A DNA stretch of 25,511 nucleotides from a virus, in the IMG/VR virus record IMGVR_UViG_3300046804_001246, positions 1 through 25,511 of that record, one strand, 5' to 3'. A program made the translations under genes and the position numbers. Of this stretch, positions 684-22,036 are shown one piece after another (within the stretch, counting starts at the first letter, position 1; the number at the start of each line of letters is the position of its first letter). The notes under the pieces are model-generated. The model ran no database searches. It saw only the letters and a program-made list of their open reading frames with translations, and was not told the DNA's origin.

Positions 684-1016
684 TTATTCAGCGGTTATAG
701 GTTCAGGCTCAGGAGTTGGCTCAGGTGCAGGAGGTACAGGAGGAATATAATCTCCTGTGATGGTTAGGTTCAGTTGCTCTGCAACCCAATCCCAGGCATA
801 ACTGTCGATTGTCCATTGTGCATAAGCATCACCTGTCATAGTCAGGTTCCCTTGCGCTAACTGAGGTCCAACTGCTAGGTCTACAGTCTCAGCGAATAAC
901 TGATAGTAGAATGTAGCTGATGTTCCTAGTGTTACATTGATAGCGTAAGCATTTAATATCTTCGCTTCTTGTACTGTTCCATTGTCCCAAATGGATACTG
1001 GTTCAATTGTTTTCAT
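684..1016 (-). CDS. appendage protein with proline/glutamate-rich C-terminus, 110 aa
   Basis: The N-terminal ~88 residues read as a small beta domain (MKTIEPVSIWDNG, INVTLGTSATFYYQLF, DAYAQWTID). They are followed by a Pro/Glu-rich tail near residues 91-107 (PPVPPAPEPTPEPEP). Its start overlaps the stop of the giant fibre gene by 4 nt (ATGA), so translation is probably coupled to the fibre. A small protein immediately downstream of a long fibre could be a fibre chaperone or tip protein. That is a positional inference and no catalytic motif is visible. Confidence 0.75.
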   Translation of the reverse strand: MKTIEPVSIWDNGTVQEAKILNAYAINVTLGTSATFYYQLFAETVDLAVGPQLAQGNLTMTGDAYAQWTIDSYAWDWVAEQLNLTITGDYIPPVPPAPEPTPEPEPITAE

Positions 1017-4000
1017 GATAATTTGTTTATTTTTTCGTTTAGTTCCTTAATTGCAGCGATTAATATAGGAGTAAGTTTTGAATAATCAACCTCTTGCATT
1101 TGTTCTCCATCCTTTTCTCCTGTCACAAGGTATGGAAGTATTTCCTGTATCTCGTGAGCTATGAATCCATCCTGTCTAGTCTTAGAGTTTTTGTATTTAA
1201 AGTTAACAGGATTTAAGCTTAATACTTTCTGTAGTGGATTGTCAATAGGTCGTAGCTCCTCTTTCAATCTATAATCAGAAGAAGTGTTGTATGCAGTGTT
1301 AGAGCCATCAGTTGATATTGAACCTACAAAGCTACCATTATAGCTGAATCTTATTATTGAACCTGTCACACCACTCAATCCTGCAACCAATGCAGTAGAT
1401 GTAGTGCTCTTTATTATTTGAGCATTACCTGCAACATTCAATGTGTAACCTGCATCAGTAGTTGTACCAATCAAGACATTGCCGCTAGTAGGAATAATAG
1501 TCATTGCTGTTACAGCATAGCTAGATATCGCAAGATTTCCACTACCAGCTGGTCTACCAACATTCCAATATGGAGTCCCAGAGTCACCAAAAACTATTGA
1601 AGCAGCAGAAGCAAATGCTACTCCTACACGTATTGTGCTATTAACATTTAAATTAGAACCTAAATCCGTTGTCGTTCCAATCAATACGTTTCCAGGAGCT
1701 CCTCCAGTTATTGTCATTGTAGGAGTTGACCCACTATTTGCAAAAAAATTAAAATTATTTCCATTGTATTGTATGAATCCATTAGAACTTGTAGAATTTA
1801 TGAATGACAAATCCACATAAGATACACTTGATTGAAATCTACCAATTGTTCCAGAACCATTTACATGAAGCAATGTACTCGGACTACTCGTCCCAATACC
1901 AACGTTGCCATTAGCTTTAAATCTTACAGCTTCGAAATATTGGTAACTTGGTGCTTCATATCTATAAACATCAAATGCTAAACCACCAGAATATGGATTA
2001 ACATCTGGGCTAGATATTGCCCTTATTCTACCATTTCTACTATCATTAAATGTATTACCACTCCAAGTTAAACTAATACCATTTACCCCCTCTGTAACAA
2101 CATTATCAATAAATCTTGCTGTTCCATTTACATTTAATTTATATCCAGCATCCGTTGTCGTTCCAATCAAGAGGTTGCCAGTAGTACTTATTCTTACCCA
2201 CTCCGTGTATGTAGTTTTATTTGTTCCTAAGTTACCAAACGTAATAAATCCTCCACCAGCTCCATGTGCAAAAATATCAGTAGAGTTGCCAGCAGCCAAA
2301 TCTTGGCCCATGCCAGCATAAACGTTACTTGCATTATCATACACCATAAACTTAGGACCAACCCCTGTTCCTAATGATAATCTTGTGGATGGACTACTTG
2401 TCCCAATCCCAACGTTGCCAGCAGATGTGATGCGCATACTCTCAGTCATTGACTTTGCTCCTCCAATAGCTACAACTGAAGTAGAGGTCCCTCTAAAGAA
2501 ATAAATATCTCCACTATTACCAACTCTAATAGCTGACCCAAGATTGCCAAACTGTGCTTGAGTTGAAATAAATGCACCACTTGTTGTTGTTGATGGAGCA
2601 ACTATTGAACCTAAAACTAAATCACCAGAAGAATAGTCTATTCCATAAGATGTTAAGGATTCATCAAGAGTATAGTTATCTCCTAAAACCCAATATCCAT
2701 TTCCTGCAACTACCCCAAATCCAGCTTTTATTGCTGGCCTATTTCCAGCTGCTGCTTGTACAGTTAGCCTAGATGTATATGCGCTTGTATTTCCAATCAA
2801 GACGTTGCCTCCCGAAGTGATGCGCATTCTATTTTGATTAGCAACTAAGTCATAAAAATCAAATGCTCTATCTGTTGAACCAGTAGCAACCTCTGTACCA
2901 ATTGCCCATAAATCAGTATTAGCATTACTTCCAAAGAAACGTAATTGAGTATTATTTGTAGACCCTCCAGATGTACCTTGCAAACGTAAAACCTCAGCAG
3001 CAGTTGTTGAAACGTGCAAGCGAAGCCCAGGACTAGTCGTCCCAATCCCAACGTTTGTACCATTGTCAAAGATTTGGCTATTTCCAATTGTTGTAGAACT
3101 TGTAAACTTAACAACTGTATTTGTTGTGCCAGAAACAGCAACAGATGTACCAGAGGAACCAGATGTTCCACTAGTAGCAGAAGTGCCACTGGTACCACTT
3201 GTAGCAGATGATCCAGAAGTACCACTAGTCCCACTAGTTCCTGTTGTACCACTGGTGCCAGAAGTAGCTGATGTGCCACTGGTACCTGTAGTTCCAGACG
3301 TACCTGAACTACCACTGGTACCACTTGTACCACCTGTACCATTAGTTGCAGATGTTCCACTAGTGCCACTAGAACCAGAGGTGCCTGTAGTACCTGATGT
3401 ACCAGACGATCCACTAGTAGATGATGTACCACTAGTTCCACTAGTACCCCCTGTTCCATCTGTAGCTGATGTTCCTGATGTACCAGAGGAGCCTGAAGTT
3501 CCTGTAGTACCTGAAGTGCCAGAACTACCACTTGTTCCTGTAGTACCACTAGTTCCACTAGACCCACTGGTTCCACTGGTACCACTGGTTCCAGATGAAC
3601 CATCTCCACCTGTGGCACCATCAAGGTTAACCACCCAAGAAGAATATGTTCCAGAGCCAGTTTGACCTGTCACTAAGAAACTTAATACACCAGTGTTTGG
3701 ATCATAGGCTGTAAGGATAGCTTCGTTATGCTGTAGGGCATCGAGCGAATATGTGATAATTATACTTTGTCCTAGTGTATAAGACAAACCAGTGCCTACA
3801 GTTATGGTACCTGTACCACCTGCTGCTTGTATGGTGTATGTAGAGCTTGATGTAGTGGCAAATCTATCTCCAGACAATCCAGAAGTACCAGATGTACCTG
3901 TCGTACCACTAGTGCCTGAAGTGCCACTAGTTCCAGTGGTACCACTTGTCCCACTAGAACCACTTGTGCCTGTTGTTCCACTAGTCCCACTAGTACCATT

Positions 4001-5176
4001 ACTACCATCAAGACCAGTGGTACCACTTGTTCCAGAGCTACCACTAGTTCCTGTCGTTCCACTTGTACCTGAGCTACCAGATGTACCTGTAGTACCAGAA
4101 GATCCTGAAGTTCCAGTGGTTCCACTAGAGCCAGAAGTACCAGTGCTTCCACTGGTTCCACTACTACCACTTGTACCTGTGGTCCCACTTGTACCACTAG
4201 TTCCAGCAGTTCCACTAGTTCCTGTGGTTCCTGAAGTTCCTGAAGAGCCACTAGTTCCTGTTGTACCTGAACTTCCACTAGTTCCAGAAGTTCCACTTGT
4301 TCCATTAACACCACTTGTACCACTGGTACCACTAGTGCCTCGTGTACCACTGGTTCCACTCGTTCCTGTTGTGCCTGACGTACCACTGGTGCCAGCTGTA
4401 CCACTTGTACCTGCTGGACCTGGGACATAGCCAAGAATTGCGTATATATCAAGATCTGTAATAGGGCTAGCTGATGTAACTAGTCCTTTTGCATTTACAG
4501 AAAACTTTAATGGAGTGATTACTGGATAAGGATTGGGATTTGCGTTTTGTAGTGTTAGTGTTGTTGTAGACAATGTAAAGCCTGTGCCCACTACATCACC
4601 TGTAAATGAAATTGCTTGTGGTGACACTACTAATGGTGCTGTTGTAACACTTGTTACAAGTCCTTTGGCATTCACTGTAACCACTGGTATTATTTGGCTA
4701 GCACCAAATGTTCCTGGGTTTATGTTGACAGTGTTTAATGTAAATACAGCAGAACCAGGTCCTGTTGCTACACCATCACCAGAAAGAGCTGTAATATAGT
4801 TTCCTGGAGGTTGGAATGATGATGAGTCTAAAGATCCATCACCCTTAACAAACTGTGAAGCTGTTCCTCCTGTAGTAATGTGTTTAGCAGCTTTAAGATT
4901 GCCTGTGAACTCGAGAGTGAAATTACCACCAATGGTTGTGTTTTGAATTAAGCTACCACCTAATTGAACTGGTTGGTTGAGAGCTGTTTGTACTATACCA
5001 TTGTTAAAAATATAACCTATACCAGAGTTTATGAAAGCCTGATTAATTTTCTGTAGAACAACCTGTAGATTATCATTTGTTTGTACGCCAATGTATAATA
5101 AATCTTCTCCCTCGTAGAATACACAGGAAGATGATAATAAAAGAGGACATGGGCTGGCTCCACATATAGAACTCAT
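1013..5176 (-). CDS. long collagen-like tail fibre with C-terminal S74 self-cleaving chaperone, 1387 aa
   Basis: Probable receptor-binding fibre. Residues 1-50 hold a Cys-containing N-terminal module (SSCVFYEGEDLLYIG, then NLQVVLQKI) shared with two neighbouring appendage proteins. Residues ~253-436 and ~524-678 are Gly-X-Y triplets, mainly GTS, GSS, GTT and GTA, a collagen-like rod. Between them is an ~85-residue beta domain starting at about DRFATTSSS. From about residue 708 there are at least seven repeats of the form N-V-x-IGTTSP / G-N-V-L-IGTTTD-x-G-x-x-LNVNG. Residues 1299-1387 carry SSDYRLKEEL, QDGFIAHEIQEILP and a C-terminal helix, the signature of the peptidase S74 intramolecular chaperone. 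In characterised S74 proteins this domain trimerises the fibre and cuts itself off next to the Ser of the S-D-x-R-L-K motif. Start ATG 5176-5174 has an A/T-rich leader without Shine-Dalgarno. Confidence 0.93.
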   Translation of the reverse strand: MSSICGASPCPLLLSSSCVFYEGEDLLYIGVQTNDNLQVVLQKINQAFINSGIGYIFNNGIVQTALNQPVQLGGSLIQNTTIGGNFTLEFTGNLKAAKHITTGGTASQFVKGDGSLDSSSFQPPGNYITALSGDGVATGPGSAVFTLNTVNINPGTFGASQIIPVVTVNAKGLVTSVTTAPLVVSPQAISFTGDVVGTGFTLSTTTLTLQNANPNPYPVITPLKFSVNAKGLVTSASPITDLDIYAILGYVPGPAGTSGTAGTSGTSGTTGTSGTSGTRGTSGTSGTSGVNGTSGTSGTSGSSGTTGTSGSSGTSGTTGTSGTAGTSGTSGTTGTSGSSGTSGSTGTSGSSGTTGTSGSSGTTGTSGSSGTSGTTGTSGSSGTSGTTGLDGSNGTSGTSGTTGTSGSSGTSGTTGTSGTSGTSGTTGTSGTSGLSGDRFATTSSSTYTIQAAGGTGTITVGTGLSYTLGQSIIITYSLDALQHNEAILTAYDPNTGVLSFLVTGQTGSGTYSSWVVNLDGATGGDGSSGTSGTSGTSGSSGTSGTTGTSGSSGTSGTTGTSGSSGTSGTSATDGTGGTSGTSGTSSTSGSSGTSGTTGTSGSSGTSGTSATNGTGGTSGTSGSSGTSGTTGTSGTSATSGTSGTTGTSGTSGTSGSSATSGTSGTSATSGTSGSSGTSVAVSGTTNTVVKFTSSTTIGNSQIFDNGTNVGIGTTSPGLRLHVSTTAAEVLRLQGTSGGSTNNTQLRFFGSNANTDLWAIGTEVATGSTDRAFDFYDLVANQNRMRITSGGNVLIGNTSAYTSRLTVQAAAGNRPAIKAGFGVVAGNGYWVLGDNYTLDESLTSYGIDYSSGDLVLGSIVAPSTTTSGAFISTQAQFGNLGSAIRVGNSGDIYFFRGTSTSVVAIGGAKSMTESMRITSAGNVGIGTSSPSTRLSLGTGVGPKFMVYDNASNVYAGMGQDLAAGNSTDIFAHGAGGGFITFGNLGTNKTTYTEWVRISTTGNLLIGTTTDAGYKLNVNGTARFIDNVVTEGVNGISLTWSGNTFNDSRNGRIRAISSPDVNPYSGGLAFDVYRYEAPSYQYFEAVRFKANGNVGIGTSSPSTLLHVNGSGTIGRFQSSVSYVDLSFINSTSSNGFIQYNGNNFNFFANSGSTPTMTITGGAPGNVLIGTTTDLGSNLNVNSTIRVGVAFASAASIVFGDSGTPYWNVGRPAGSGNLAISSYAVTAMTIIPTSGNVLIGTTTDAGYTLNVAGNAQIIKSTTSTALVAGLSGVTGSIIRFSYNGSFVGSISTDGSNTAYNTSSDYRLKEELRPIDNPLQKVLSLNPVNFKYKNSKTRQDGFIAHEIQEILPYLVTGEKDGEQMQEVDYSKLTPILIAAIKELNEKINKLS
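3143..3607 (-). repeat. tandem Gly-X-Y coding repeat, block 2
   Basis: This second tract of about 155 codons of Gly-Thr/Ser triplets is separated from block 1 by an 85-residue beta domain. Within it the phrases ATDGTGGTSG and ATNGTGGTSG recur about 40 residues apart, suggesting a longer internal duplication on top of the triplet repeat. Confidence 0.88.
3869..4420 (-). repeat. tandem Gly-X-Y coding repeat, block 1
   Basis: About 184 codons of almost uninterrupted Gly-Thr/Ser-Ser/Thr triplets, encoded by a 9-nt-like degenerate repeat that shows on the plus strand as recurring CCACTAGTTCC and CCACTTGTACC units. Synonymous codons are mixed, so the DNA repeat is imperfect although the protein repeat is nearly perfect. 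A short break (LDGSNG) lies near residues 389-394. Such tracts are prone to slippage and recombination, so rod length may differ between relatives. Confidence 0.9.
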
Positions 5177-11484: not shown

Positions 11485-11509
11485 AAATGTAGTTTTATAT
11501 TATTGGTTT
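11485..11509 (-). repeat. leader repeat copy downstream of HNH gene
   Basis: On the minus strand AAACCAAT (11509-11502) is followed by ACTACAT (11493-11487) and then the start of the 323-aa gene, ATGGGTAA. The same order and start bases occur before the HNH gene at 11945-11967, and the leader alone occurs before the scaffold gene. Confidence 0.7.
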
Positions 11510-11944: not shown

Positions 11945-11967
11945 ATGTAGTTGATTTGTATTGGTTT
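11945..11967 (-). repeat. leader repeat copy upstream of HNH gene
   Basis: AAACCAAT (11967-11960) and ACTACAT (11951-11945) directly precede the HNH start codon ATGGGTAA. Together with 11485-11509 it forms an imperfect direct repeat on either side of the HNH gene. Confidence 0.7.
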
Positions 11968-11974
11968 GTTTTTG

Positions 11975-12047
11975 CAGAGTGTGCCAATCAAATGGCTAGG
12001 CTCACTGACCCACACTCTGTTTTGAAACGTTTTCACGTCAGTCCTAG
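11975..12047 (-). ncRNA. candidate pseudoknotted RNA element upstream of the HNH gene
   Basis: Two stems are interleaved. Stem A pairs 12047-12037 with 12009-11996: 11 base pairs (GTCAGT/ACTGAC and CCTAG/CTAGG) with a 3-nt bulge at 12001-12003. Stem B pairs CAGAGTGTG (11975-11983) with CACACTCTG (12011-12019), 9 perfect base pairs. One strand of each stem lies inside the loop of the other and only one nucleotide separates them at 12010, which is H-type pseudoknot geometry. The loops carry small hairpins, CCA/TGG at 11984-11995 and TGAAA/TTTCA at 12023-12035. The strand is inferred from the operon direction. It could instead be two mutually exclusive folds, or a DNA recognition site. Confidence 0.5.
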
Positions 12048-12066
12048 GGGTCTACCCAAGGAGAGG

Positions 12067-12098
12067 TATAAAGCTCCCCCCATGAAACATGAGGGGAG
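12067..12098 (-). terminator. strong hairpin just after the capsid gene
   Basis: On the minus strand CTCCCCTCAT (12098-12089) pairs with ATGGGGGGAG (12083-12074): 10 pairs including one wobble, around a 5-nt loop. CTTTATA follows. It starts 8 nt after the stop of the capsid gene. The U-run is weak, so it may act as a 3' mRNA stabiliser or as a partial terminator that keeps downstream genes at lower levels. Confidence 0.6.
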
Positions 12099-12106
12099 AT
12101 TTTATA

Positions 12107-13660
12107 TTAGAACTGTGGAATTTCTTCGATTAGAACAGTTCTTGACAAGTCTTCGATGAATACATCGCATCTGTCTTGCATCCAGATCTCATAGCCTGGG
12201 AATTTGTTGGCAGAAGACATACCCTGAGACTTAGCAAAGCCTAAGTGGTGTCTACGTCCATCGATATATCCCCAAGTCATAGAAGGAGCACCTTTCATTC
12301 TCACCTCACGAATGTTGTTGACCATAGAGCCATCAGACATTGGAGACACATCAAATACCATGAACACTGGAGTAGATTTCTTGTTCTGACCAAATTCCAA
12401 GTTGGACTGAGGAAGATCAAGTTCTTTCAAGTGGATAAGTTCCACACGACCAGTTTCACGAGTAACCATTGCATCAAATGCAAAGTTGTAAGTGATGTGC
12501 TGTCCTTCTCCTTGCATATATCTGTTTCCAGAATCAGCCATGAAGGTAAGACCAGAGTTCAATGCATCAGCCTTCAAAGCCTGCTGGAACACGTCAAATC
12601 CAGCTTCGTTGGTGTACATCTTCACTCTTCTGTCCTTAACATCCACACGTCTGTAGAACAAGTCTCCAAACACAGAACGAATAAGGTTTGCAGAGAATTC
12701 TCCACGATTGTATTGTACCAAGTTACCATTGTTACGCATTCTGTGGTAAACACCAGCAGATACACGCTTCAATTCTTGCTTAGATCCATTAGTTTTTACA
12801 GTGCCTGGCTTAGACCAGATCATTCTCTTCACCTTAAGCTCAAGCATTGATTTTCTCAACATGAACTCTACAAATGGCTCCCACTTAACATCATTACGAG
12901 TTAGAGGAAGTTGGTTTCTGCGCTGAGGAGCATATACCAAGATGTCAAGAGGATTACCTTTGGAATCTCTCATAGTCTTGTCATCAGCCCATGCAGTGAT
13001 TTGGTGCTCAAAACCATATCCAGAACCAAGAGATTCGAACATAGTGATTTTCTCACCAAGTCTTGGCAAACCAAGAAGATCTTGATCAAATTCACCAATT
13101 GCAGCATCTACTAGTTCTAGTTCGATACCAATTTGCAAGAATGTAGGGCTTACGAAATCCACAATTGGGTTATCAGAAACCAATGTGAAGCTGTAAAGGA
13201 ATCCTGCATTCCAAGGAACTGGGTCCTTAATCACATACCATCTTGGACCATACTGACGAGAACCTACAGAAACGATAGCGTTCTTAGAGAATTCGTTAGT
13301 GTCCAATACCACCTGAAATTCCTGACCATCGATACCTGGCTTGCTCAACTCAGCAGTGGAGCTAGGGATGTCAATGATTTTAGGGAATTTGTAAGGAACT
13401 TGAACTTCCCACTTCCAAGAATCGCTGTTGTTGTCGATGTAGTAAGGAGTGGACTTGTTGATCATATCAAGGAAGTCGTTGCTGTACAATGAGCTCTGAG
13501 TGTACAAGGAGATGATCTTCTTGTCATAGTCAGCTGGCTCAGTGGAGTGAAACGACTCCAAGTGATTTGAATCAGTTAGCTTTCCTACAGCACGCTTGTC
13601 CATTGACGCAACACGAGCATAGGTAAAGCCTGTTAAACCTGGGATTGTTTGAATTGCCAT
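12107..13660 (-). CDS. probable major capsid protein, 517 aa
   Basis: The call rests on context: a 517-aa soluble protein directly after portal and scaffold-like genes, with its own strong 3' hairpin and a leader shared with another presumed abundant protein. The protein begins MAIQTIPGLTGFTYARVASM and has no signal peptide, membrane segment or enzyme motif. Its composition is mixed alpha/beta, with a long central region including MFESLGSGYGFEHQITAWAD and RRNQLPLTRNDVKWEPFVEF. The C-terminus contains PSMTWGYIDGRRHHLG and EDLSRTVLIEEIPQF. Length fits HK97-fold capsid proteins of crAss-like phages (about 500 aa). The leader is A-rich (TAAACAAAGCTTAAAACA then ATGGC) with no Shine-Dalgarno. The fold itself cannot be read by eye. 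Confidence 0.75.
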   Translation of the reverse strand: MAIQTIPGLTGFTYARVASMDKRAVGKLTDSNHLESFHSTEPADYDKKIISLYTQSSLYSNDFLDMINKSTPYYIDNNSDSWKWEVQVPYKFPKIIDIPSSTAELSKPGIDGQEFQVVLDTNEFSKNAIVSVGSRQYGPRWYVIKDPVPWNAGFLYSFTLVSDNPIVDFVSPTFLQIGIELELVDAAIGEFDQDLLGLPRLGEKITMFESLGSGYGFEHQITAWADDKTMRDSKGNPLDILVYAPQRRNQLPLTRNDVKWEPFVEFMLRKSMLELKVKRMIWSKPGTVKTNGSKQELKRVSAGVYHRMRNNGNLVQYNRGEFSANLIRSVFGDLFYRRVDVKDRRVKMYTNEAGFDVFQQALKADALNSGLTFMADSGNRYMQGEGQHITYNFAFDAMVTRETGRVELIHLKELDLPQSNLEFGQNKKSTPVFMVFDVSPMSDGSMVNNIREVRMKGAPSMTWGYIDGRRHHLGFAKSQGMSSANKFPGYEIWMQDRCDVFIEDLSRTVLIEEIPQF

Positions 13661-13683: not shown

Positions 13684-14925
13684 TTATAAGAACCATGAGT
13701 TCGCTTTTCCAGGATTGCCACCAGAACCAGGTTTTTTACTGGTTTGTCTCGCAACTTCCTCAAACAACTGGGTTGACTTCTTAGTCACTCCTGTTCTTTG
13801 TATGGTAGATAATGTAGGATCTTTTTCTAAGATCTTAAGAAGAAGTCCCACTTTAACTTTCATAGCGTGGTTCTCAGGTCTCTTAAGTTCCAGGATAGTC
13901 TTGTCAAAATCTGTCAGGGTTTCACCTGAAGGAGTTTTGTACTTGTCTACCAAAAGGAAGTCTTGTAGTTCTGATGCCAATTTGGGGTTTAATGGAATTC
14001 CATCAAACTCCTTTGTTTTCAATTTGTCTTGAAGGACAGACTGAACGTTTTGTATATATTGATTTCGAATCATTGCTTTTTGCTGAAGTTGTTGTTCAGC
14101 TTGCTGCTCCATTTGTTGCAGCTTTACTGCCTCCTTCTTTACAAGCACTTTGTGGTGCTTGCTAGCAACTGTTTCTAAATCACCATAGTTTCTAAGCCTC
14201 TCAACTTCTGTAGTGATGTCTTCATCGTCAAATCCTTGGTCTGCCAAGGCTTGTTTGATAACTCTCACTTGGTTGTCTTCATTGGACAAGTCCAATTCAG
14301 CGAAGCTTACCACATTGTTATATACACCAAAATAATCTTTAGGGTTTACACCCTTTACAAATATGGCATCAAACGCTTTTTGGTAATCTTCTCCAAACTG
14401 ACCAATGAAGTTATCAACAATCTCGATTGCACCTTTTTTCTTTTCTGCATTGAATTTCTCCAGAAACTGTTCTGGTGTTTCAATGACTGTATCTTCCTCA
14501 TCTTCGTCCTTTGTGAAGACACCAAGTTTGAAAAGATCTTTTGAGAGAGAAACAAATGGGGATTCTGGTACATCTTCTTCGTCATCAGCTTCTTCAGCTT
14601 GCGCTTCTGTTTGAGCTGGTGCTACAACGTCTTCGTTTTCCTCATCTTCTTCATCATCTCCAAGAAAGTTTTTCAAAACATCTTGAGGAGTGGTCTCTTC
14701 ACCATCTAGCTTTTGTACAACTTCCTTACCTTTTGAAACTTCTGGTTTTTTGGGAGCTTGGGGTTCATCAGCTGTCTTTACGATTGCCTCTAGTTTATCA
14801 GGATCTTCTGTAGAAGTTTCTGGAGAGAACAGATCGTCTAATAACTCTGTGTTACCCACTCCCATTCCCAGTGTTTCTTCGATACCAAAGTTACCAAGTG
14901 ATGGAGTGTCTAGGTTGTCTGCCAT
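13684..14925 (-). CDS. scaffold-like capsid assembly protein, 413 aa
   Basis: The gene lies between portal and capsid genes, the usual place for a scaffold. The protein is acidic and low in complexity over residues ~35-150, including DDEEDEENEDVV and ADDEEDVPES. A helical core around 150-250 (EQFLEKFNAEKKKGAIEIVDN) precedes a Gln-rich coiled-coil segment (AVKLQQMEQQAEQQLQQKAM, about 268-287) and a basic Gly/Pro/Asn C-terminus (KKPGSGGNPGKANSWFL). Acidic N-terminus, coiled coil and basic C-terminal tail are common in scaffolds, whose basic tail contacts the capsid protein. No protease motif is visible. The leader carries AAACCAAT and ACTACAT before ATG 14925. Confidence 0.7.
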   Translation of the reverse strand: MADNLDTPSLGNFGIEETLGMGVGNTELLDDLFSPETSTEDPDKLEAIVKTADEPQAPKKPEVSKGKEVVQKLDGEETTPQDVLKNFLGDDEEDEENEDVVAPAQTEAQAEEADDEEDVPESPFVSLSKDLFKLGVFTKDEDEEDTVIETPEQFLEKFNAEKKKGAIEIVDNFIGQFGEDYQKAFDAIFVKGVNPKDYFGVYNNVVSFAELDLSNEDNQVRVIKQALADQGFDDEDITTEVERLRNYGDLETVASKHHKVLVKKEAVKLQQMEQQAEQQLQQKAMIRNQYIQNVQSVLQDKLKTKEFDGIPLNPKLASELQDFLLVDKYKTPSGETLTDFDKTILELKRPENHAMKVKVGLLLKILEKDPTLSTIQRTGVTKKSTQLFEEVARQTSKKPGSGGNPGKANSWFL

Positions 14926-15058
14926 ATATGTAGTTAATTATTTGATTGGTTTATTGATATAAATGTACTTTCGTTTATAAAATAATCAAATAAGAAATAA
15001 TCAAAATTGTTGTTTTTTTGACACGTATAGCATTAAGTATACTTTTCTCTATATTTTT
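14926..15058. promoter_or_regulatory. AT-rich regulatory gap between portal and scaffold genes
   Basis: This is the longest gap inside the head-gene block, 133 nt. It contains the scaffold leader AAACCAAT / ACTACAT, a 10-bp perfect inverted repeat TTATTTGATT (14938-14947) / AATCAAATAA (14984-14993), a direct repeat AATAATCAAA (14981-14990 and 14996-15005), and one plus-oriented copy of TATAGCATTAA (15026-15036). That 11-mer is also half of a small hairpin GTATA/TATAC (15025-15029 / 15038-15042). A promoter or operator for the scaffold-capsid transcript is plausible. Confidence 0.45.
15026..15036 (+). promoter_or_regulatory. copy of the 11-mer TATAGCATTAA, antisense to head genes
   Basis: This is identical to copies at 22378-22388 and 23426-23436. 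Like the 22378 copy it follows GACAC within a few bases. In this position a promoter would fire antisense into the portal gene, so the role here is uncertain. Confidence 0.35.
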
Positions 15059-21436: not shown

Positions 21437-21637
21437 TTTTATTATTTCTGTTTTTCAATAAGCACCCCCACCCATATAGATGATTGTAAAAAGCCCCCCA
21501 CCAAAATTTTCAAAATTTGGAAAACTATTGTGTCAATGGGAGGGGAGGTTACATCAGATTGAAACCCCTTGAGGTTTTTGGCAGGTTGGGGTGTTCCCCC
21601 TGCTTTGACACTAACTAAAACCAAAACACAAACTAAG
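21437..21637. promoter_or_regulatory. divergent intergenic control region
   Basis: This stretch separates the two transcription directions. It holds an imperfect palindrome CCAAAATTTT/CAAAATTTGG (21501-21520), and the decamer CCACCAAAAT inside it (21499-21508) also occurs at 21421-21430. There are C-runs and G-runs (CCCCCCACC, GGGAGGGGAGG) and a possible plus promoter: TTTG near 21577-21580 followed 19 nt later by CTGCTTTG, which is only a partial -7 match. A short frame on the minus strand here is probably not coding. Confidence 0.45.
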
Positions 21638-22036
21638 ATGGCAAACGCAATCGAAATCACAGGCCCACAAATCTTTCGTCTCAGAGTTCTAGAATCTGCT
21701 AGACCTTACGCAAAAGATTCTGCTCTAGCAGGACAAACCTATTCTAGAGTGACCTACAATGGAACAGTCTTTACTATTAATGATAAAGATCCATTCCTTG
21801 CAGACCTCAAGGCTGGTAAAGTTCACACTGCATTCTTGCTTGAGACGCAAGACACTATCGAAGATTCTGAAGGTAACTCAACTAACGTTACACGATTACA
21901 ATTCGATGGTTACGCAAGCAATGCTCAAATGATTGGCCTAACCAAGACTGATGCTGTTCTACAAAGCATCATGAAAGGCTCATTCAAAGCAGAAGCAGAA
22001 CTTAGCGAGGCAGACCTACAGGCATTGGAGCAATAA
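21638..22036 (+). CDS. 132-aa soluble protein, first plus-strand gene
   Basis: I chose ATG 21638 (MANAIEITGPQIFRLRVLES) over a more upstream in-frame Met, because the upstream stretch is G/C-run intergenic DNA and this ATG has an A-rich leader typical of the window. The protein is mixed alpha/beta with QTYSRVTYNGTVFTINDKDP, LKAGKVHTAFLLETQDTIED and NVTRLQFDGYASNAQMIGLT, and an acidic helical C-terminus (EAELSEADLQALEQ). An acidic tail after a beta-rich core recalls single-stranded-DNA-binding proteins, but no OB-fold signature can be proved by eye. It stands alone, is followed by structured non-coding DNA, and may be strongly expressed. Confidence 0.85.
   Translation: MANAIEITGPQIFRLRVLESARPYAKDSALAGQTYSRVTYNGTVFTINDKDPFLADLKAGKVHTAFLLETQDTIEDSEGNSTNVTRLQFDGYASNAQMIGLTKTDAVLQSIMKGSFKAEAELSEADLQALEQ

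Follow-up and report, generated by a model that had tools for sequence, protein, structure and literature searches.

A conserved three-way-junction RNA at the capsid/gp33 junction of crAss-like phages, tentatively read as an intercistronic boundary element

The window analysed here is the whole 25,511-nt stretch of IMGVR_UViG_3300046804_001246, and related loci are referred to by L numbers. Its major capsid protein has a Crass_capsid domain and a gp33-like gene comes next after the capsid gene, which places the phage in the Crassvirales (Table 1). The genes of the structural block are all on the minus strand, so that the relevant RNA is that of the minus strand, on which the capsid gene is followed by a hairpin (H2), a three-way-junction RNA element (3WJ) and an HNH gene. 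The predicted fold of the gp33-like protein matches uncharacterised proteins in BFVD, several of them crAss-like, such as one of Cellulophaga phage phi14:2, and no useful match was found in the PDB by sequence or by fold. Elsewhere in the window, a 1387-aa ORF (1013-5176, minus strand) contains long GTSGTSG repeats, and its C-terminal stretch resembles the end of a tail-fibre chaperone. The only genome match among the related loci was L204 (JACIXZ010000023.1), a crAss-like contig binned in a Tissierellales MAG; this placement is probably a binning artefact and not evidence of a host.

Table 1. Features of the capsid/gp33 junction in the window
Feature	Position	Strand	Evidence and remarks
Major capsid protein, crAss-like	12107..13660	-	Pfam PF23898 Crass_capsid, E 7e-26; phrog_11589 major head protein
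H2 hairpin after capsid stop codon, terminator-like, weak U tract	12067..12106	-	MFE fold
Lineage-specific insertion, ~39 nt, boundaries approximate	12024..12062	-	Only in window, L001, L010, L012, L013
Conserved three-way-junction RNA (3WJ)	11974..12019	-	Covariance model 45.6 bits, E 5e-9 (window's own clade among the training sequences); covariation in relatives
P1 5' strand CAGAGTG	12013..12019	-	Pairs 11975-11981; outer 7 bp of the 9-bp stem
P2 hairpin	11997..12012	-	UGGGU (12012-12008) with GCCUA (12001-11997), loop CAGUGA
P3 hairpin GCCA-UUUGAU-UGGC	11983..11996	-	UUYRNU-type hexaloop, conserved in nearly all relatives
P1 3' strand CACTCTG	11975..11981	-	Same evidence as P1 5' strand
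Leader AAACCAA-N-AACTA	11948..11967	-	Before HNH start codon
HNH homing-type endonuclease, 149 aa	11495..11944	-	phrog_2255, E 9e-22; at ATGGGTAA start of downstream gene
gp33-like gene, 323 aa	10513..11484	-	Position after capsid gene as in crAss001 gp32-gp33; own second leader 11490-11509
Leader AAACCAA-N(4-16)-AACTA, other sites	11490-11509; 14931-14952; 21618-21635	-; -; +	At gene starts

Among the relatives, the element is 46-60 nt long on the coding (minus) strand and combines a closing stem P1 of 7-8 bp, a hairpin P2 that is very variable in sequence yet paired, and a hairpin P3 with a UUYRNU-type loop. P1 occurs in the compensated types CAGAGTG/CACTCTG, CAGATGG/CCATCTG, CAGAGAT/ATCTCTG and CGGAGTG/CACTCCG, and all of the 80 closest relatives (80 contigs, capsid protein 93-99% identical, 51 distinct junctions) keep the closing stem, either as CAGAGTG...CACTCTG or with compensating changes. 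The copy in the window is a short form, in which P2 has five pairs, two of them G-U, and the thermodynamic model rates its three-way fold (-18.0 kcal/mol) and a long hairpin that could form instead on this P1 (-18.2) as equal. The three-way reading of the window is drawn from its relatives, in which P2 pairing is maintained (UAGGU/ACCUA in L016, UAGGU/GCCUA in L007) and P3 shows a double change (GUCA/UGAC in L016); in other clades P2 is longer and covaries strongly.

Two sets of sequences were used for the covariation analysis, the first comprising 39 distinct relatives aligned without structure, and the second comprising 29 distinct sequences found by scanning IMG/VR DNA with a pattern in which P1 and part of the P3 loop were specified and P2 and P3 were otherwise left free. 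In the first set, 91.8% of cells were paired, compared with 37-47% with slid partners; in the second, P2 and P3 paired in 88.2%, compared with 34-49% in the control. P1 was paired in 96.7% of cells, and P3 was 97.8% paired in A3, with swaps from CCC/GGG to AGG/CCU. Two-sided changes were found at 19 of the 21 pairs in the first set, and in the joint 68-sequence alignment the top eight of 1891 column pairs by APC-corrected G statistic were all predicted pairs, as were 11 of the top 14, these counts being guarded by slid and all-pairs controls rather than by a full phylogenetic null for shared ancestry. At paired positions G-U occurred 45 times and A-C 13 times, suggesting that the signal belongs to RNA of the capsid strand and disfavouring a DNA-level palindrome or a signal on the other strand. 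The original prediction, made from the window's letters alone, had suspected a selected structure in this gap, and that much is strongly supported by pairing and two-sided changes above the controls. We regard the identification of a conserved three-way-junction RNA as very nearly certain.

The covariance model also finds the element at the expected place in loci outside its training set, such as L155, L165, L174, L148 and L156. In the IMG/VR pattern scan, 79 of the 80 matches were located at the capsid/gp33 junction (two of them judged from one flank), and the remaining one was a chance match. Whole-contig searches gave a match in 14 of 18 contigs, a single one in each except one contig, whose second match was at chance level (E 0.39), so that each genome with the element has one convincing copy. 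Similar junctions, recognised by eye and by minimum-energy folding and not detected by the covariance model, suggest a 3WJ in the deeper relatives L114, L116, L119 and L143 (capsid identity 58-72%) and possibly in L113 (capsid identity 21%). The element is absent from L136, L149, L154, L163, L180 and L183, from crAss001 and phi14:2, and from the Leptolyngbya-type clade.

Searching the window against Rfam 15 returned nothing at gathering level, and a relaxed threshold gave chance-level matches only. A self-cleaving ribozyme, a group I or II intron or another catalogued RNA was therefore rejected for want of a credible covariance-model match, and the original suggestion that the gap encodes a self-cleaving or intron-derived RNA is not supported. 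No description of the element was found in the open literature, a search outside which most subscription journals lie. The 3WJ is most aptly regarded as a new family of structured RNAs, belonging to the broad class of cis-acting intergenic elements; it has no counterpart in Rfam 15 and keeps to a single junction throughout a large environmental group of crAss-like phages.

The HNH protein of the window matches HNH families only. Its insertion site, the ATGGGTAA start codon, is occupied by an HNH gene in the window, L081, L082, L132, L221 and L271 and is empty in L001-L080, all 80 of which retain the 3WJ RNA; an HNH domain together with occupied and empty alleles at one site marks the gene as a putative free-standing homing endonuclease. 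Insertion at the start codon brings a second copy of the leader. Just past the 3WJ, L215, L258 and L276 carry short scars in which the start (ATGG...) is duplicated and a second leader is present, the trace expected of an HNH insertion that was later deleted. L130 and L181 have another HNH gene ahead of H2; that of L181 (4043-4507) is inserted right where the capsid gene ends and has a C-terminus, IPQF, like that of the capsid protein. In L138 (4176-4753), the 3WJ is followed by a tRNA-like stretch, apparently split by an HNH ORF of ~360 nt, and ARAGORN reports a tRNA-Thr (cgt) at 4646-4720. In L160 (1694-1768) and L115 (4170-4244), a tRNA-Met (CAU) gene follows the 3WJ directly, within the structural operon. 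Every case of HNH insertion keeps the structured element, although the form in L181 is divergent and more tRNA-like, and the HNH and tRNA insertions flank the element on either side and leave it intact. From these sequence comparisons the capsid/gp33 junction emerges as a homing hot spot and the HNH gene as a later homing insertion downstream of the 3WJ, that is, a passenger. The proposal that the RNA travels with the HNH gene is not supported, since the RNA is present without the gene in all 80 closest relatives. A HEARO or omega RNA of IscB-type systems was likewise rejected, given the RNA without HNH in L001-L080, the lack of an Rfam match and a 149-aa protein that matches HNH families only.

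On the capsid side of the element, nearly all relatives, and also crAss001, have a GC-rich hairpin equivalent to H2 at this junction, nearly always upstream of the 3WJ where the latter is present. In the window, H2 is a strong hairpin with four T in the 9 nt past the inner stem (the same sequence as in L010), partly paired, and it is absent from the terminator-scan list. Loci with a 3WJ mostly have 0-2 U in the 8 nt after H2, whereas in loci without it a U run often follows the hairpin (crAss001, L136, L149, L163 and L180), giving it the look of an intrinsic terminator. Between the two stands the clade of the window, with a modest U tract, so that termination could still occur there. The leader motif has five matches in the window, compared with 0.16 expected, and precedes the gene at 14925 (after the portal gene), the HNH gene, the gp33-like gene and the first rightward gene near 21640; a pair of leaders ~3 kb apart recurs in four other genomes, with one of the pair at the capsid/gp33 junction. 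The motif may be a late promoter or a translation leader of these phages, and we read its shared pattern as suggesting that the capsid gene closes one expression unit and the gp33-like gene opens the next.

We tentatively propose, at somewhat below even confidence, that the 3WJ is an intercistronic boundary element. It would act in cis together with the GC-rich H2 just upstream, replacing the plain intrinsic terminator of crAss001 and of several relatives that lack it; the structured end, through cleavage and/or end protection, would keep the capsid message distinct from the one that follows, and the boundary would help to set capsid expression apart from that of the genes downstream. This role is suggested by the leader shared by the first gene of the capsid unit and the gene after the capsid, by the position of H2 ahead of the 3WJ, by the exchange between U-tailed hairpins and 3WJ loci with few U, and by the insertions that leave the element intact. 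On the other hand, conservation of the hexaloop suggests a binding partner, for which a passive boundary would have no need, the modest U tract in the window's clade may still allow termination at H2, and the relatives listed above as lacking the 3WJ, together with the isolates crAss001 and phi14:2, manage without it; these points count against the proposal. The best overall explanation, in which a conserved 3WJ and its boundary role with H2 are combined with an HNH insertion and a recently acquired second stem, is held at slightly below even confidence.

The binding partner takes a central place in another reading, which we consider unlikely, namely that the 3WJ is a cis-regulatory 5' leader of the gp33-like gene, to which a protein (a phage structural or host factor) or a ligand would bind, probably at the UUYRNU loop, to repress or activate translation. 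Both the conserved loop sequence and the end of the element, usually 22-33 nt ahead of the downstream start codon, are consistent with such a leader. However, the start codon lies outside the 3WJ, L160 and L115 have a tRNA in between, and in the window and the other loci with the start-codon insertion the HNH gene separates the RNA from the gp33-like gene, which restarts with the plain leader only.

Insertions that displace both neighbours while the RNA is retained could alternatively point to a trans-acting small RNA from the 3' UTR of the capsid message, or to a processive antitermination element for the downstream tail genes, as could the compact, single-copy and well-conserved fold behind a terminator-like hairpin. 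This is less probable still, because the element is strictly tied to one junction and has no conserved unpaired seed apart from the hexaloop, and because neither a sigma-70-like promoter between H2 and the 3WJ nor a strong terminator around the element was found.

A likeness to tRNA was also considered. The 3WJ resembles the acceptor and T-arm half of a tRNA in its stem lengths (P1 7-8 bp, P3 4-5 bp), in the position of P3 next to P1 (0-2 nt between them in most sequences) and in a loop starting with UUCR; it differs in its 6-nt loop and in having neither an anticodon arm nor CCA, and it is recognised by neither ARAGORN nor the Rfam tRNA model, so that membership among tRNAs or tRNA-like RNAs was rejected. 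At the same junction, strikingly tRNA-like elements are present in L181 (after the HNH ORF, about 4600-4680), L204 (about 3615-3670) and L118 (about 4085-4140), with a stem of ~7 bp and a T-arm-like hairpin (GTGG-TTCGACT-CCAC or GTGG-TTCAAAT-CCAC) but without an anticodon arm, and these too are missed by tRNA models. P1 and P3 might thus mimic the acceptor and T arm as a processing signal, at which RNase P and/or RNase Z would cut. The arm geometry, the T-loop-like hairpins of these three loci and the real tRNA genes adjoining the element in L160 and L115 favour such mimicry; the failure of the tRNA models, the missing CCA, the 6-nt loop of the main clade, a T-loop A58 that is not conserved, and a first pair that is usually C-G, unlike typical RNase P substrates, make it improbable. 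The broader possibility of a new RNA class, in which an anticodon-less tRNA-like 3WJ would punctuate the structural operon and, cut by host tRNA-processing enzymes (or bound by a phage protein), would part the capsid from the following message, is a similarly long shot.

The original prediction was of a pseudoknot made of two interleaved stems. Both are exact in the window: on the plus strand, 11975-11983 (CAGAGTGTG) pairs with 12011-12019 (CACACTCTG) over 9 bp, 11996-12009 pairs with 12037-12047 through 11 Watson-Crick pairs and a 3-nt bulge, and the stems interleave with a single base (12010) between their inner arms. When the 162-nt gap was shuffled 2000 times with its dinucleotides preserved, perfect stems of at least 9 bp arose in 81 shuffles, bulged stems of at least 11 bp in 63 and an interleaved pair in 3. 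The combination is thus unlikely by chance, while the 11-bp stem taken alone, reached in about 3% of shuffles, is weak, and the 9-bp stem is accounted for by selection as P1 of the nested fold. The 5' arm of the second stem (12037-12047) lies in the ~39-nt insertion, which also folds as two local hairpins, and this arm is present in the window and in 4 of the 80 closest relatives (L001, L010, L012 and L013), being absent from the other 76; the junctions of L001 and L002 are accordingly 171 and 132 nt long. The sole change in the second stem among the five carriers turns a G-C into a G-U pair and preserves pairing, so the stem lacks compensatory support, with no two-sided change among these carriers. 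It competes with P2, and forcing it in a nested fold gives -41.0 instead of -52.4, a cost of about 11 kcal/mol, because its arms otherwise belong to a local hairpin and to part of the P1-P3 fold. With only one of the two stems conserved in relatives, a conserved pseudoknot is refuted; the conserved fold is the nested three-way junction, and the second stem is a recent lineage-specific addition. That it nevertheless serves the window's sub-lineage as a pseudoknot or a two-state switch (second stem versus P2) is very improbable, for the rarity of interleaved stems in the shuffles, loop lengths that look sterically possible and the G-U change that retains the stem are set against an arm missing from most close relatives, the lack of any two-sided change and the preference for local hairpins in nested folding.

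The first reading of this gap is thereby corrected: the structure under selection is the nested junction, and the HNH gene is a passenger that occupies a homing hot spot. CrAss-like phages rank among the most abundant viruses known, and to our knowledge little is known of how they set a very high capsid level relative to neighbouring genes. For this question, the strongly covarying 3WJ provides a precise and testable element.

Boundary structures around capsid genes have precedents. In phage T7, a terminator and RNase III hairpins around the capsid gene set the capsid message apart from the tail genes; the structures at the window's junction are alike in bounding the capsid, but a covarying three-way junction is not among the T7 elements. 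In T4-like phages, RNA hairpins control homing endonucleases, most of them by hiding the ribosome site of the endonuclease, and T4 segD sits at the capsid junction 23/24 (PMC2988022). The window is similar to these in that a stable RNA precedes an endonuclease gene that has entered a gene junction, whereas the 3WJ is conserved without the HNH gene and does not cover the start. Bacteroides phage crAss001 (MH675552) shares the same junction, between the major capsid gene gp32 and gp33, with a GC-rich hairpin immediately past the capsid stop codon; its 71-nt gap has a long U run behind the hairpin and no 3WJ, whereas the window's group adds the three-way junction, mostly without the U run.
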